Positions 3,985 to 61,314 of a DNA stretch of 64,000 bases are shown here, piece after piece. Made by a program: the position numbers and the translations under genes. The notes beneath the pieces were generated by a model. It was not told where the DNA came from and searched no databases. It saw only the letters and a list, made by a program, of their open reading frames with translations. Source of the stretch: Blautia liquoris (GTDB lineage: Bacteria; Bacillota; Clostridia; Lachnospirales; Lachnospiraceae); assembly GCF_015159595.1 (NCBI RefSeq), contig NZ_CP063304.1:310001-374000 (forward strand), given 5' to 3'. Each line of letters starts with the position of its first letter. Position 1 is the stretch's first letter.

Positions 3985-4087
3985 AAATATATTTCCGGGG
4001 TGCCGCTATGCGGCTGAGATTGGCTTTCGGGCCTGACCCGTATTACCTGATTCGGTTAATGCCGACGTAGGGAGAAGCCATATATTG
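3985..4087 (+). ncRNA. TPP riboswitch (THI box)
   Basis: The conserved THI-box core is present: GGGGTGC at 3997-4003, GCTGAGA at 4013-4019, GACCC at 4035-4039, ACCTGATTCGG at 4045-4055, TAATGCCG at 4057-4064 and CGTAGGGA at 4065-4072. A closing helix forms between ATATAT at the 5' side and ATATAT after GAAGCC. It precedes an intrinsic terminator and the ykoDCFE transporter genes, so thiamine pyrophosphate is expected to switch the operon off by premature termination. Confidence 0.96.
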
Positions 4088-4108
4088 CATCATGACTGAT
4101 AGAATGCA

Positions 4109-4204: not shown

Positions 4205-5848
4205 ATGAGCTCTGTCAGGATCAATCACCTGAATGTAGATTTAAGCGGAAAAAAGGTGCTCGAGGATCTCTGTCTGGAATTCAACACGAAAGAGCGTATC
4301 CTGATTCTGGGGGCAGGAGGATGTGGAAAGTCTACGCTGCTTCTCTCTATGATGGGGATTGTTCAGCGGATGGAAAATGCTGAAGTGACTGGAGAAGTGT
4401 TCTTCGATGATTGTCCGGTTACAAAACTAAAAGCCTTCGAAGTGGCGAAAGTTTTGGGTATTGTGTTTCAAAATCCGGAAAGTCAGTTTTGCACGCTCTA
4501 TCCGGAAAATGAAGTGGCATTCGGTCTGGAAAATCTCGGTGTGGAGCCAAAGAAGATGGACCGGATTATCAGCGATTCGCTGATGGCAATGCATTTTCCC
4601 AAGAAAAGAATTCATGCTCAGATCAATCAACTTTCCGGAGGTGAACAGCAGAGGCTGGCGTGTGCTGCAGCAGTGGCACAGGGAGCACAGATGCTTCTTC
4701 TGGATGAGCCTACTTCGAATCTAGATCCCGAGGGGAGAAGACAGGTTGCAGACGCGGCAGAAACTTTGAGCAGAAAGGGTAAAGGACTTCTTGTGGTAGA
4801 ACATAACCTGGAGAATTGGCTTCCTCTGCTGGGGCGTGTGATTGTTTTGGGGAACAACGGAAAACTTCTGGCTGACGGTGACCCAAGAGATGTTTTTGTA
4901 AAATACAAAGATCAGATGACACAGCAGGGAATCTGGCGCCCGAGGGCACTTCGCATGTTCGACGAGCTGAAAAGTCTTGGATATACGCCGGCACGGGTAC
5001 CACTTACTGCAAAAGAACTTCGCAAAGAGCAGATATCTTGGGAGCTGCTTGCAAAAGCATGGGAAAAGGCATTTCCAACTTGTGTCCGAAAAATCTCCAC
5101 CGCAAAACCACTTATTCAGACGGAACATCTTACGGGGGAATATAAAAAAGGACAGCCTGTTTTTAGGGATGTAAGCTTTCGGATGGATTGTGGAGACTTT
5201 GTAGCTTTGACGGGAAGAAATGGCAGCGGAAAATCCACGCTGGCAAAAACATTGGTTGGGCTTCATGAGGCCTCAGAAGGACGGATTATGCTGTTTGGAC
5301 AAGATACAACCGGGGAAAGGGCGAGTTCTGTTTTCAGAAGCGGTGATATTGGTTATGTGTTTCAGAATCCAGAGCATCAGTTCTTGAAGGAGACGGTCTG
5401 GGACGAACTGAAATACAGTGTCAGACAGGATTTAAGCGGGAACAGTATCGTTCACAGACTGATTCAGCAATTCGATCTACAGGGTGTGGAGAGCAGCAAT
5501 CCCTTTCGTCTTTCCGGGGGGCAGAAGCGCAGACTTTCTGTCGCCATTATGTTGTCGGGGCATCGAAAACTCCTGATCTTGGATGAGCCTACTTTTGGTC
5601 AGGATGAAAAAGCTACATATATGTTGATGGATAAGCTGATCGAATACAATCAGGGAGGAACTGGCATATTGATGATTACGCATGATTTGGATCTGGCGGC
5701 GAGATATGCTAATAAGATAGCAGTGCTTTCAGACGGCAGCCTTGCTTATTATGGGACACCAGAGGAGCTCTGGAAAAAGCCCGATGTGATTAAACACAGC
5801 GGACTGCAAATTCCTTTTTTTGCAGAACTGCGTATGGAGGATCAATAG
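4205..5848 (+). CDS. ykoD: ECF transporter double ATPase for thiamine/HMP (YkoD)
   Basis: A 547-residue protein with two ABC ATPase domains in tandem, energising uptake of a thiamine precursor. Domain 1 shows Walker A GAGGCGKST (residues 36-44), signature QLSGGEQQR (about 143) and Walker B MLLLDEPTS. Domain 2 shows GRNGSGKST (about 338), RLSGGQKRR (about 438) and LLILDEPTF. A tandem CbiO-type ATPase is normal for YkoD. AAAGGAGG precedes the ATG. It is the first gene of ykoD-C-F-E behind a TPP riboswitch, which fixes the substrate class as thiamine or its pyrimidine moiety HMP. The next start lies 4 nt after its stop. Confidence 0.92.
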   Translation: MSSVRINHLNVDLSGKKVLEDLCLEFNTKERILILGAGGCGKSTLLLSMMGIVQRMENAEVTGEVFFDDCPVTKLKAFEVAKVLGIVFQNPESQFCTLYPENEVAFGLENLGVEPKKMDRIISDSLMAMHFPKKRIHAQINQLSGGEQQRLACAAAVAQGAQMLLLDEPTSNLDPEGRRQVADAAETLSRKGKGLLVVEHNLENWLPLLGRVIVLGNNGKLLADGDPRDVFVKYKDQMTQQGIWRPRALRMFDELKSLGYTPARVPLTAKELRKEQISWELLAKAWEKAFPTCVRKISTAKPLIQTEHLTGEYKKGQPVFRDVSFRMDCGDFVALTGRNGSGKSTLAKTLVGLHEASEGRIMLFGQDTTGERASSVFRSGDIGYVFQNPEHQFLKETVWDELKYSVRQDLSGNSIVHRLIQQFDLQGVESSNPFRLSGGQKRRLSVAIMLSGHRKLLILDEPTFGQDEKATYMLMDKLIEYNQGGTGILMITHDLDLAARYANKIAVLSDGSLAYYGTPEELWKKPDVIKHSGLQIPFFAELRMEDQ

Positions 5849-7930: not shown

Positions 7931-8014
7931 AGATCAATCCATAACGAGACAGCACAGAGATATCCTGCAGCTGCCTCGTTTTTTCTTGTATAAGAAAAAA
8001 AACCTGATATAATG

Positions 8015-8171
8015 TATGATACCAGGGTCAAAAGGTTATGCGTTTCATGCTTGCATGAAAAAGCATAACTTTGGGACCCGAACAAACATGAGAATGAAGC
8101 CCGAACAGGGCGGAATTCGAATGTTTGAGGATTGCGGGAGCCCGAAAGGGCGGAGCAATCCGTGGTATCAT
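8015..8171 (+). repeat. Structured repeat element, copy A, complete with terminal inverted repeats
   Basis: The element is bounded by a perfect 9-bp inverted repeat, ATGATACCA at 8015-8023 and TGGTATCAT at 8163-8171. Inside are three helices: a long hairpin of about 20 bp at about 8031-8074 (core TTTCATGC-TT-GCATGAAA), a branched hairpin at about 8081-8129 closed by ACAAACAT/ATGTTTG and containing GCCC-GAACA-GGGC, and a hairpin at about 8130-8159 closed by GATTGC/GCAATC with GCCC-GAAA-GGGC. Copies at 29638-29784, 28452-28531 (partial) and 61231-61277 (partial) show compensatory changes. No real gene lies here. Confidence 0.85.
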
Positions 8172-8184
8172 CATCGGTGCGGAA

Positions 8185-8337
8185 CACCCCAGGGAATCTC
8201 GTGCTCTTTTTCATGTTCACATGAAAAAGGCATATCCCCGCGGCCTAGACAAACAAGAATGCAGCGCCCCAGGGAATCTCGTGCTCTTTTTCATGTTCAC
8301 ATGAAAAAGGCATATCCCTCGGCCCAGACAAACAAGA
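8185..8337 (+). repeat. Two tandem copies of an 80-bp repeat
   Basis: Two head-to-tail units with an 80-bp period (the shared block CCCCAGGGAATCTCGTGC begins at 8187 and at 8267) are nearly identical. Each carries a palindrome, CTTTTTCATG-TTCA-CATGAAAAAG, whose TTTCATG/CATGAAA core is also found in helix I of the adjacent element A. The rest of the gap from 7931 to 8353 holds element A and a short possible ykoE terminator; no gene is supported there. Confidence 0.85.
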
Positions 8338-8353
8338 GAGGATAAAAATATAG

Positions 8354-9211
8354 ATGTGGATTGCAGACAAATGGAAAGACTATGAAGTGCTGGACACTTC
8401 TGACGGAGAAAAGCTAGAGAGATGGGGAAAGTATATTTTGGTGAGACCAGATCCACAGGTGATCTGGAGCACGCCGCGTAAACATCCAGACTGGCAGAAG
8501 ATAAACGGCCATTATCACAGAAGCAGTAAAGGCGGCGGAGAATGGGAATTCTTCAATCTCCCCGAACAGTGGAAGATCTCATATCGGGATTTAAATTTTC
8601 ACTTGAAGCCTTTCAGTTTTAAGCACACGGGTCTGTTCCCGGAACAGGCGGTAAACTGGGATTGGTTTTCAGATAAGATTAAAAATGCAAACAGACCTAT
8701 AAAAGTATTGAATTTATTTGCATATACCGGAGGTGCCACCCTGGCGGCAGCACAAGCCGGTGCATCCGTGACACATGTGGATGCTTCGAAAGGTATGGTG
8801 ACCTGGGCAAAAGAAAATGCAGTAGAATCAGGACTTGAACAGGCCCCTGTACGATGGCTTGTGGATGATTGCAAGAAATTTGTGGAACGTGAAATCAGAA
8901 GGGGGCATCATTATGATGGGATTATCATGGATCCGCCCTCATATGGAAGGGGTCCCAAGGGCGAAATCTGGAAGATAGAGGAATCGATTTTTCCCTTTAT
9001 CATGCTCTGCACACAGATATTAAGTGAGGAGCCCCTGTTTTTCCTGGTGAACTCCTATACGACCGGACTTGCGCCGTCAGTTCTTGGCTATATGCTTTCC
9101 GTGGCACTTAAGAAATACGGCGGCTATGTAGAAGCTGAGGAGATCGGACTTCCAGTCATGTCTTCGGGACTGATTCTGCCCTGTGGAGCATCCGGAAGAT
9201 GGGAACGATAA
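8354..9211 (+). CDS. Class I SAM-dependent methyltransferase (RlmI/RlmK-like)
   Basis: A 285-residue protein. The SAM-binding motif I is VLNLFAYTGGATLAAAQAGA (residues about 117-136), followed by acidic motif II THVDASKGMVTWAKENA and the catalytic-type motif IMDPPSYGRGPKGE near residue 196. This combination is typical of the RlmI/RlmK-related rRNA cytosine methyltransferases and close relatives. An N-terminal PUA domain like that of RlmI is not evident, so the rRNA target is inference. GAGAGGA lies 11 nt before the ATG. It is probably monocistronic and begins just downstream of the repeat cluster. Confidence 0.82.
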   Translation: MWIADKWKDYEVLDTSDGEKLERWGKYILVRPDPQVIWSTPRKHPDWQKINGHYHRSSKGGGEWEFFNLPEQWKISYRDLNFHLKPFSFKHTGLFPEQAVNWDWFSDKIKNANRPIKVLNLFAYTGGATLAAAQAGASVTHVDASKGMVTWAKENAVESGLEQAPVRWLVDDCKKFVEREIRRGHHYDGIIMDPPSYGRGPKGEIWKIEESIFPFIMLCTQILSEEPLFFLVNSYTTGLAPSVLGYMLSVALKKYGGYVEAEEIGLPVMSSGLILPCGASGRWER

Positions 9212-28451: not shown

Positions 28452-28531
28452 ACGTATCTATGGTTATTCGGATCAAAAAGGTTATGGTTTTCATGCAAGT
28501 ATGAAAAGCATAACCTTTTGACTCTAGTATC
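28452..28531 (-). repeat. Structured repeat element, copy B (partial; helix I), likely also a terminator
   Basis: The hairpin at 28473-28521 has a stem of about 20 bp (AAAAGGTTATG with CATAACCTTTT) and the core TTTCATGC/TATGAAA, matching helix I of copies A and C. Read on the minus strand it is preceded by GATACTAGAG, comparable with GATACCAAGAG at the start of copy C, and followed by a short stretch like the segment after helix I. Helices II and III are missing. It lies between two convergent genes and can terminate both. Confidence 0.7.
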
Positions 28532-29637: not shown

Positions 29638-29784
29638 TGATACCAAGAGTTTCAAAGTCATGCTTTTTCATGCTTGCATGGAAAAGCATGACCTTGAAAC
29701 TCGCAACAGCATGAAAAGGAAGCCCGCCAGGGCGGACTTAGAATGCTGTTAGGATTGCGTGAGCGCAAAGCGCGGAGCAACTTA
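29638..29784 (+). repeat. Structured repeat element, copy C
   Basis: It begins TGATACCA (left terminal repeat) and contains all three helices of copy A in order: helix I at about 29650-29700 (GTCATGC...TTTTTCATGC-TT-GCATGGAAAA...GCATGAC), helix II closed by AACAGCAT/ATGCTGTT with GCCC-GCCA-GGGC, and helix III with GCGC-AAA-GCGC. Base changes relative to copy A fall on both sides of stems. Similarity ends at GGAGCAA (29780), 2 nt before the stop codon of the minus-strand CYTH gene; the right terminal repeat is absent. Confidence 0.82.
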
Positions 29785-30237
29785 CACAGCCCCTTGCCCT
29801 CTACTTAAAGTGCTATTCTGATATTTTGCAGAGAAAGTCACATCCTTACCGAACCAAGACGGCGGTATGAACTTGCGTGCACTTTCCTCATCTGGGAATT
29901 CCACTTCTGCGAGATAAAGAGTCTCATAGGGTTTATGAAAGTGATCCAGTTCGATCTTAAGCTTCTGGCCAAGAGGGAGGACATACCGGGTTTTTGATAT
30001 CAAAATACCATCTGTTTTGGGGCGCATATGTTCATATGCTTCTTTTGTAAGCGGAAGATTGTATTCTTCTCTGGACAGAAACCCCTTTGATTTATAGGTA
30101 AGAACATACTCATCACCCTGACGGCGGATGCGGACAACGGGTTCCGTATTCAGGTAGCCTTGTTCAATTTCATAATGGGGATACCGATTTATGTTTTCCG
30201 GCAGTTGATGTATCAGATATTTACGTTCAATTTCCAT
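29782..30237 (-). CDS. CYTH-domain protein (triphosphate tunnel metalloenzyme family)
   Basis: A 151-residue protein with the defining EIERKYLI motif at residues 2-9 and the expected basic and acidic strand motifs GYLNTEPVVRIRRQGDEYVLTYKSKG (positions about 27-52) and LKIELDHFHKPYETLYLAEVEFPDEE (about 93-118). Members hydrolyse inorganic triphosphate or related nucleotides, or act as class IV adenylate cyclases; bacterial short forms are mostly triphosphatases. The activity here is inferred. The stop codon lies right at the edge of structured repeat copy C. Confidence 0.88.
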   Translation of the reverse strand: MEIERKYLIHQLPENINRYPHYEIEQGYLNTEPVVRIRRQGDEYVLTYKSKGFLSREEYNLPLTKEAYEHMRPKTDGILISKTRYVLPLGQKLKIELDHFHKPYETLYLAEVEFPDEESARKFIPPSWFGKDVTFSAKYQNSTLSRGQGAV

Positions 30238-44132: not shown

Positions 44133-44485
44133 AGGCGCAGCGATAATTAACAATGACCTTATGAATGTCCAAGCGTTTTCGCAAATACAAAAGCGCTTAT
44201 GAGATGTGACAGAACAAAGTAAATACTGTTTAAAATCATGCTTGATGATAGATAAAAATTATACTATTTTTTAACATAAATTAGCAAGAATTCCCCTTCC
44301 TCTTCAGGTGGCGGGATGAATTGCCATAATGTCCAAATCTTTGGAAAAGATTATATACAGCGACCAGTATAGGGATCGTTGCTTTTTGCACTGTATCCTC
44401 CAAAACTTTTTCTAAAACGTGGAGAGAACACTTGTTCTTATGACAAAAATGTGTTATGCTATCATCAGTCGATAAGAGAAAAGAG

Positions 44486-44899
44486 ATGATCAATGTGAAT
44501 AAATTGGACAATAATGCACATTCAGTATTCCTCCTGTATTACCATCTGATTATGGTCGTAAAATACAGGAGAAAAGTGATTGATGATGATAGTTCTAAAA
44601 GGGCGGAGGAGATTTTTTCTTATATTGCACCCAAGTATGGAATTACCTTGGAAGAATGGAATCATGACAGAGATCATGTTCATGTGATGTTCCGGGCTCA
44701 GCCGAAAAGCGAACTCAGCAAATTTATCAATGCCTATAAGAGTGCAAGCAGTCGGTTAATTAAGAAAGAATATCCACAGATTCGAGAGAAACTTTGGAAA
44801 GAAGCATTCTGGAGCCAGAGTTTTTGTCTGCTCAGTGCAGGAGGAGCACCAATCGAAACCATACGGGCTTATATTGAAAGTCAGGGTGAAAAAGCATGA
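44486..44899 (+). CDS. tnpA: IS200/IS605 TnpA, HUH-type single-strand transposase
   Basis: A 137-residue Y1 transposase. The metal-binding HUH motif is in RDHVHVMFRA (residues about 61-70) and the catalytic tyrosine in IRAYIESQGEKA close to the C-terminus. VFLLYYHLIMVVKYRRKV near the N-terminus is also typical. The start is taken at MINV, after AAAGAGATG-type spacing; the frame runs 10 codons further upstream. It cuts and joins single-stranded element ends. Its last codons overlap the tnpB start. Confidence 0.92.
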   Translation: MINVNKLDNNAHSVFLLYYHLIMVVKYRRKVIDDDSSKRAEEIFSYIAPKYGITLEEWNHDRDHVHVMFRAQPKSELSKFINAYKSASSRLIKKEYPQIREKLWKEAFWSQSFCLLSAGGAPIETIRAYIESQGEKA

Positions 44900-45990
44900 A
44901 CAAAGCCATAAAATTTCGTATCTATCCAAATAAAGAGCAGGGAGAACAGTTTGCAAGAACCTTTGGATGCTGCCGGTTTCTATACAACGTGATGTTGGAA
45001 GATAAGATGAAAGAATATCAAAAAAGTAAAAAGCGGTTGAAGAATACGCCGGCTTTTTATAAAAAACAGTATCCGTGGCTGAAAGAGGTGGATTCACTGG
45101 CACTAGCCAATGTGCAGCTTCATCTGGAAAGGGCATATCAGAACTTTTTTAGAAATCCGCAGAGTGGTTTTCCAAAGTTCAAATCAAAACACAGAAGCCG
45201 TGCAAGTTATACGACGAATGTAGTAAATGGAAATATCAAACTGGAAGAAGGAAAGCTGAAGCTTCCGAAAATGTCTCATGTAAAACTGGTACAGCACCGA
45301 CAGATACCGAAAGAATATCAATTGAAATCGGTGACGGTCACTCAGGAACCGTCCGGAAAATATTATGCCAGTCTTCTCTATACCTATGAGAGCCAAATAA
45401 GTGAGGAGAAAGAGGCGGTAGAAAAGATGTTGGGAATGGACTTTGCCATGAGCGGTATGGCGGTGTTTTCAGACGGAAGCCGGGCAGAGTACCCGATGTA
45501 TTACCGGAAGTCAGAAAAGAAATTGTGCAAAGAGCAGAGAAAGTTGTCTCACTGTGTAAAAGGAAGCAGAAATCACGAAAAGCAGAGACGAAAAGTGGCT
45601 GTCTGTCACGAAAAGGTAAAAAATCAGAGAAAAGATTTTCAGCATAAGCTGAGCAGAAAATTGGCGGACAGTTATGATGCAGTGTGCGTAGAAGATCTGA
45701 ACATGAAAACCATGAGCCGGAGTCTGCACTTTGGGAAGAGTGTTATGGATAATGGATATGGAATGTTTCTGGGAATGCTGGAATACAAGCTAACGGATCA
45801 GGGAAAGAGGCTGGTGAGAATAGATAGGTTCTATCCATCAAGTAAGACATGCTGTCAATGTGGAGCAGTAAAAAAAGAACTAAAATTATCGGAGCGGATA
45901 TATGAGTGTCGTTGTGGAAACCGGATGGACAGGGATGTCAACGCGGCAATCAATATCCGTGAAGAGGGAAGAAAAATATTATGTGCATAA
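44896..45990 (+). CDS. tnpB: IS605 TnpB, RNA-guided endonuclease family (OrfB)
   Basis: A 364-residue TnpB. The three RuvC acidic residues appear in LGMDFAMSGMAVF (Asp, near 178), VCVEDLNMKTM (Glu, near 262) and RMDRDVNAAINI (Asp, near 346). The zinc ribbon has CCQCG and CRCG between RuvC II and III. The N-terminal helix-turn-helix IKFRIYPNKEQGEQFARTFGCCRFLYN is present. All catalytic positions are intact, so this could be an active RNA-guided nuclease using an RNA from the element's right end. Confidence 0.93.
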   Translation: MNKAIKFRIYPNKEQGEQFARTFGCCRFLYNVMLEDKMKEYQKSKKRLKNTPAFYKKQYPWLKEVDSLALANVQLHLERAYQNFFRNPQSGFPKFKSKHRSRASYTTNVVNGNIKLEEGKLKLPKMSHVKLVQHRQIPKEYQLKSVTVTQEPSGKYYASLLYTYESQISEEKEAVEKMLGMDFAMSGMAVFSDGSRAEYPMYYRKSEKKLCKEQRKLSHCVKGSRNHEKQRRKVAVCHEKVKNQRKDFQHKLSRKLADSYDAVCVEDLNMKTMSRSLHFGKSVMDNGYGMFLGMLEYKLTDQGKRLVRIDRFYPSSKTCCQCGAVKKELKLSERIYECRCGNRMDRDVNAAINIREEGRKILCA

Positions 45991-61005: not shown

Positions 61006-61221
61006 ATGGAACATAACAGTTTTTTTCATACTAAGGAAGGTTCGCTTACCTTGGCTTTTGTTGTAATTATGGTCGCTTTTGTTATAATTATGCTAGGTCT
61101 AAATATAGCAAATGATGTAATATGTCTGATTGGGTTCGGATTGGCTCTTTGCGGAATGCTCTATTCGCCGACCGATGTATATATTTTAAAACCATTAAAA
61201 AGATGTTGGGGTCAAAAGTAA
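61006..61221 (+). CDS. Small two-helix membrane protein
   Basis: A 71-residue protein with two transmembrane segments (residues about 15-35 and 38-53) and a short cytoplasmic basic end (LKPLKRCWGQK). I do not recognise the family. It starts 24 nt after the LctP-type transporter stop, with AGGAG-like sequence before the ATG, so it is co-transcribed and may be a small partner of that transporter. Confidence 0.65.
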   Translation: MEHNSFFHTKEGSLTLAFVVIMVAFVIIMLGLNIANDVICLIGFGLALCGMLYSPTDVYILKPLKRCWGQK

Positions 61222-61230
61222 TTTTGCCTC

Positions 61231-61277
61231 CATGATACACGGATTACTCCGCACTTTGTGCTCGCGCAACCCAGGTA
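61231..61277 (-). repeat. Structured repeat element, copy D (helix III only, with terminal repeats)
   Basis: On the minus strand, this short element matches the right end of copy A: ATGATACACGGATTACTCCG at 61231-61250 against ATGATACCACGGATTGCTCC in copy A's reverse complement. The helix III loop region reads GCAC-TTT-GTGC, where A has GCCC/GGGC and C has GCGC/GCGC. It ends with GGTATC at 61272-61277, so it keeps both ends and lacks helices I and II. It lies between the small membrane protein and allC. Confidence 0.72.
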
Positions 61278-61314
61278 TCTTTAAAAATAAATAATAGAAA
61301 AAGAGGATGAGTGT

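Follow-up and report, generated by a model that had tools for sequence, protein, structure and literature searches.

The closest described system is Clostridiales-1 RNA (Rfam RF01699), which a table of Weinberg et al. (2010; PMC2864571) gives as a probable RNA, not cis-regulatory, and which Rfam types as an sRNA gene with its function listed as unknown. Beyond that 2010 table, the literature searched yielded nothing on Clostridiales-1 and no account of its mobility, which may still be reported elsewhere. The BOX elements of Streptococcus pneumoniae are short, dispersed and modular, with variable tandem parts, a fold adopted when transcribed, a presumed MITE-type mobility and ends that resemble ISSpn2 (Croucher et al. 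2011; PMC3049150). QMITE2 of Coxiella burnetii, about 180 bp long, possesses terminal inverted repeats, direct repeats of 7–9 bp and stable stem-loops (reviewed in PMC10969869).

The element considered here occurs as four copies, A to D, in a 64,000-nucleotide stretch of the Blautia liquoris genome (the window; positions 310001-374000 of a single contig of 3,518,434 bp, hereafter G000). Its ends, its target duplications, its empty sites and the same anatomy in other genera make it very probably a non-autonomous MITE-like DNA transposon, whose core encodes the conserved Clostridiales-1 RNA fold. The RNA family itself is already named, catalogued and unexplained, and the mobility is the new part. 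Copies A and C belong to Clostridiales-1 by score and are alike in fold and conserved loops, and to the public entry are added here an outer transposon unit, a right-end hairpin, target duplications, tandem-tailed forms and a promoter-proximal placement. All the features listed above for BOX recur except the partner insertion sequence, which was not found, whereas the 7-8 bp target duplication sets the present element apart; this comparison concerns architecture only, and no common sequence or modules (boxA, boxB, boxC) are claimed. With QMITE2 the element shares size, inverted repeats, direct repeats and stem-loops, but it differs in having as its core a multibranched RNA fold that is conserved between genera and possesses conserved internal loops.

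Identity and Distribution of the Family

Membership in RF01699 was defined by a covariance-model score of at least 48 bits, the cut-off of the family, and copies A and C reach 133.6 and 92.3 bits, respectively. The preliminary description had recognized a structured RNA family without a name; the structure stands, but the name exists. Its view of a dispersed, non-coding element is borne out by 93 matches in the own genome, 66 of them above the cut-off, and, of the three places it had proposed to search, the genome and the relatives contain further copies and Rfam a matching family. The family is present in 28 of the 61 genomes searched (the own genome and 60 relatives), several genera harbouring many copies, and the copy number among relatives ranges from 0 to 93. 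Among 149 genomes sampled evenly across the phylum, the own included, it occurs only in the own genome and in one other of the same taxonomic family. Named matches to a strict hairpin pattern come mostly from Lachnospiraceae-type genomes, e.g., Muricomes, Faecalicatena, Anaerobium and Candidatus Pelethocola, and the viral contigs searched with the same pattern gave zero matches.

Copies in the Window

Copy A contains a complete Clostridiales-1 core on the + strand (8017..8170; 133.6 bits, E 1.9e-30), delimited by the Rfam alignment and the predicted fold. The core consists of a closing helix (8017-8024/8163-8170), hairpin 1 (8025..8079), the 5' side of which overlaps the left terminal inverted repeat GATACCAGGGTCAAAAG (8018-8034), hairpin 2 (8083..8127) with the conserved internal loops ATGAG and CGAAT, and hairpin 3 (8129..8161) with the conserved internal loop GGGA/GGA. 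The 9-bp inverted repeat initially taken to bound the copy is present (ATGATACCA, 8016-8024; TGGTATCAT, 8163-8171), but it corresponds to the closing helix of the RNA and does not mark where the mobile unit stops. The ends first perceived are internal; intact copies extend about 30 bp further, to an additional hairpin. In copy A the right end is replaced by a tail (8171..8343, + strand) containing two 52-bp repeats that resemble hairpin 1 (8187-8238 and 8267-8318). Neither a recognisable right end nor a target duplication was found for this copy, which appears to represent an older, right-truncated form and to be no longer intact as a transposon. According to the predicted fold, the two tail repeats anneal to form a single, very long hairpin within the leader of the SAM-dependent methyltransferase gene located downstream in the same sense (8354..9211, + strand; PF10672). 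In two congeners this gene occurs in a different context devoid of the element, so that copy A offers no clean empty site.

Upstream of copy A, a promoter-like sequence TTGTAT-16-TATAAT (7986..8013, + strand) ends 4 nt 5' of GATACC; its -10 box (TATAAT, 8008-8013) is exact and its -35 box weak (3/6), and it was not called by a consensus promoter scan, its assignment drawing on the sequence and on a family-wide enrichment. No intrinsic terminator (hairpin plus U-run) was called on the + strand between 7800 and 8500.

Copy C (29638..29788, + strand; 92.3 bits) still has all three helices, but the right half of its closing helix is missing. Copy D (61202..61279, - strand) is an internally deleted element of 78 bp with both transposon ends, flanked by ATTAAAAA and TTTAAAAA, which are identical in 7/8 positions. 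Copy B (28488..28531, - strand) is a left-end fragment comprising GATACTAGAGTCAAAAGG and part of hairpin 1; of the two copies formerly considered as internally deleted with their ends kept, only D is of this type. The window also contains a TPP riboswitch (3986-4090; RF00059, 78 bits) upstream of an open reading frame (4205-5848), and a complete-looking IS200/IS605-type element (44456-45990) in which a Y1 transposase gene (PF01797) is followed by a TnpB gene with OrfB_IS605 and Cas12f1-like domains. The segment that follows a related TnpB is found at several sites of the genome with 98-99% identity.

RNA Fold and Covariation

The minimum-energy fold of copy A is made of three helices and the closing helix (z -9.3 for 8017-8353), an arrangement identical to the Rfam consensus, the match spanning the entire model; with the three helices of copy C, it upholds the order of helices first recognized in both copies. 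In an alignment of 48 copies from the own and related genomes, 38 of the 45 consensus pairs have changed on both sides, compared to 12-20 in slid controls, and 94.6% of the cells are paired versus 81% in shuffled alignments, none of 500 shuffles attaining the observed values. The covariation, for which the preliminary description had asked for a test, is far above chance. The letters of the internal loops (ATGAG, CGAAT, GGGA/GGA) hardly change from one genus to another, unlike those of the stems, and in some distant copies the closing helix is preserved with different letters (AAAGCCC/GGGCTTT, GGAAAGTC/GACTTTCC). G-U pairs are infrequent (28 of 1865 cells) and exceed A-C mismatches on the sense strand (28 to 14, p 0.044), an excess that leans weakly towards selection on the RNA strand.

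Outer Ends and Target Duplications

Intact copies measure 182-237 bp and run from GATACCAGGGTCAAAAG to an extra hairpin ending in CTTTTGACCCCAACATC, the two ends forming an imperfect inverted repeat. The Rfam model covers part of this mobile unit: many copies continue through the hairpin GGGGTCAAATTACTTTTGACCCC, and the units running past the model end on the right in AACATC or AACCTC. At 13/17 positions, GATACCAGGGTCAAAAG and GATGTTGGGGTCAAAAG, the two outer ends, are identical. The ends follow the pattern GAT-N4-G-N-GTCAAAAG; a search with a relaxed end pattern yielded nothing further. A perfect, AT-rich direct repeat borders 23 of the 29 copies with both ends (7 bp in 15 copies, 8 bp in 8), whereas left flanks shuffled against the right flanks of other copies gave 0.42 repeats on average, with a maximum of 4. 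The target consensus ATNNN(N)AT was derived from 63 flanks: position -1 is T in 62 of them, position -2 is A in 53 and position -6 is T in 49. The element accordingly shows the attributes of a MITE, i.e., a length below 600 bp, no coding capacity, dozens of copies, terminal inverted repeats and a target site duplication. The outer hairpin, with the same ends and 7-8 bp duplications, is also found at seven loci (L099, L101, L105, L125, L031, L032, L035) belonging to four relative genomes (G002, G007, G013, G032).

Depending on the copy, intact units are of two sizes: shorter units of 182-185 bp, with a mean identity of 92% and values up to 99.5%, and longer units of 234-237 bp with an extra hairpin inside hairpin 3. 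This insertion of about 50 bp (GGGTGCTGAACATCC...GGATGTTCGTTTAGCACC) characterizes a subfamily of ten copies in G000 (26048, 49445, 1239252, 1373803, 1798432, 2135662, 2547962, 2560188, 3003148 and 3261493), several of which possess perfect target duplications, which suggests that this longer form is likewise mobile. A second form, which includes copy A, is devoid of the right end, in place of which stand partial repeats in tandem or a hairpin tail (GGTGCGG...CATG); at G000 2403040-2403674, this right-truncated form makes up a tandem array of three units of about 159 bp behind a full core, adjoining the downstream gene. Very short units of about 65-100 bp, with little beyond the two outer ends, also occur in G000 (983281-983374, 737846-737941, 1081565-1081666, 2316596-2316660 and 1538721-1538790).

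Empty Sites and Orthologous Copies

For eight copies, both flanks were joined, with one copy of the duplication kept where known, and searched in congeners. Four of the eight joined flanks (sites 2257934, 98503, 1076645 and 2041291) match congeners across the junction without any element, some with small local differences or insertions. These congeners are different species with 65-79% identity, and the empty sites therefore support insertions but do not time them. Together with the direct repeats, they support the mobile, MITE-like nature suggested at the outset. At site 1076645 the element interrupts the 3' end of a coding region that reads on for a few codons in the congener, so that the insertion probably altered the last residues of the protein. 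The right-truncated copy 1305337 has an occupied counterpart at the orthologous position of the congener G005, with flanks 80-87% identical, and is consequently old. Muricomes intestini, considered as a second strain of the same species, was rejected at only ~72% identity.

Position Relative to Genes

According to crude gene calls, the downstream gene has the same sense as the element for 40 of 55 copies (40 versus 15, p 0.001), and in regions of tandem genes sense copies outnumber antisense copies by 21 to 8 (p 0.024). An exact TATAAT at most 15 nt upstream was seen in nine copies on the sense side only and in none on the antisense side only. As judged from these sequences, many copies probably sit just behind promoters at gene starts. 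Since the target ATNNNAT accommodates ATATAAT, an insertion at a -10 box would duplicate the box and leave the promoter in place.

Search for a Helper Transposase

Neither an autonomous copy nor a transposase with matching ends was found in the own genome, which was searched for five transposase families and for long end pairs. The ISL3, DDE_Tnp_1 and IS1595 transposases (PF01610, PF01609, PF12762) are absent from it, and the IS256-type and UPF0236 transposases (PF00872, PF06782), with one copy each, have other ends. Three candidate autonomous copies (1904639-1908742, 3261493-3264852 and 3001262-3003351) turned out to be decayed end fragments around host genes, and all end pairs 0.7-4.5 kb apart in the loci scanned enclose, from their inspected translations, host genes only, e.g., an aldolase, a DeoR-type regulator and a radical-SAM activase. 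In Muricomes intestini (L187, 6608-7957), an aldolase-like gene lies between a left and a right element end as in a composite unit, with flanks devoid of an obvious duplication. A parent transposon that shares the ends is usual for MITEs, but it need not have survived. The helper may have been lost, may belong to another family or may be brought by visiting elements.

Discussion

Mobility, as deduced from the comparison of copies and sites, would proceed as follows. The outer ends GATACCAGGGTCAAAAG and CTTTTGACCCCAACATC would be used by a DDE-type transposase supplied in trans, with insertion at ATN3AT or ATN4AT and duplication of those 7-8 bp. Between the ends, the four-way fold of the Clostridiales-1 RNA would be kept by selection across genera. 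A sense copy just behind a promoter probably becomes part of the transcript, as a folded 5' leader, and such promoter-proximal copies would often be retained after loss of the right end and growth of a tandem tail, as in copy A.

An ordinary family of RNA genes or leaders, spread by descent and segmental duplication, would agree with the sRNA gene type in Rfam, with the probable RNA of the 2010 table (PMC2864571), with the strong covariation and with copy 1305337 at its orthologous place in G005. It is nevertheless an improbable account, facing the 7-8 bp direct repeats that border 23 of the 29 intact copies, the congener empty sites and a copy number of 0 to 93 among relatives; the target duplications refute it for the intact copies, and it could hold for right-truncated ones such as A. 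Target duplications are also produced by retroposition, and a SINE-like element, the transcript of which is itself reverse transcribed and inserted, would agree with a folded-RNA unit that starts just behind -10 boxes in several copies and with the lack of a DNA transposase partner among the five transposase families searched in the own genome. The two ends, which form an inverted repeat, and the precise 3' end are instead those of a DNA transposon, no poly(A)-like tail is present, and this origin is very unlikely. Least credible of all is a REP/BIME-like element moved by a Y1 (IS200/IS605-type) transposase, in spite of hairpins typical of Y1-moved elements and of the intact-looking Y1 and TnpB genes at 44456-45990. 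Y1 transposition does not duplicate its target, and the 7-8 bp duplications and the inverted-repeat ends conflict with such an element, including the REP-like option of the preliminary description.

A weightier alternative keeps the same MITE but gives its hairpins a role as DNA only, in transposase binding, strand extrusion or the correction of palindromes during replication, the RNA having no role. The copies are numerous, G-U pairs are rare, and other MITEs form hairpins without a known RNA function (PMC10969869). Against it stand the internal-loop letters conserved across genera while stems change, the excess of G-U over A-C on the sense strand, the sense bias and the upstream -10 boxes, none of them decisive, and this possibility, while doubtful, deserves serious consideration. 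That the folded RNA is active in mobility itself, as a guide, a transposase cofactor or a copied intermediate, is a speculative and improbable idea; if true, the transposon class would be that of a stand-alone RNA element moving via its own transcript.

As a MITE-like transposon with an RNA core, a catalogued RNA family of unknown function would gain a concrete nature: it would travel as a small transposon whose target and ends are both defined. The mobile-element reading would correct the boundaries of the family and account for its uneven copy number, from 0 to 93, and it warns that covariation in RNA databases can belong to DNA that moves. The element is likewise a tractable example of a transposon landing behind promoters, which may give genes a ready-made folded leader.
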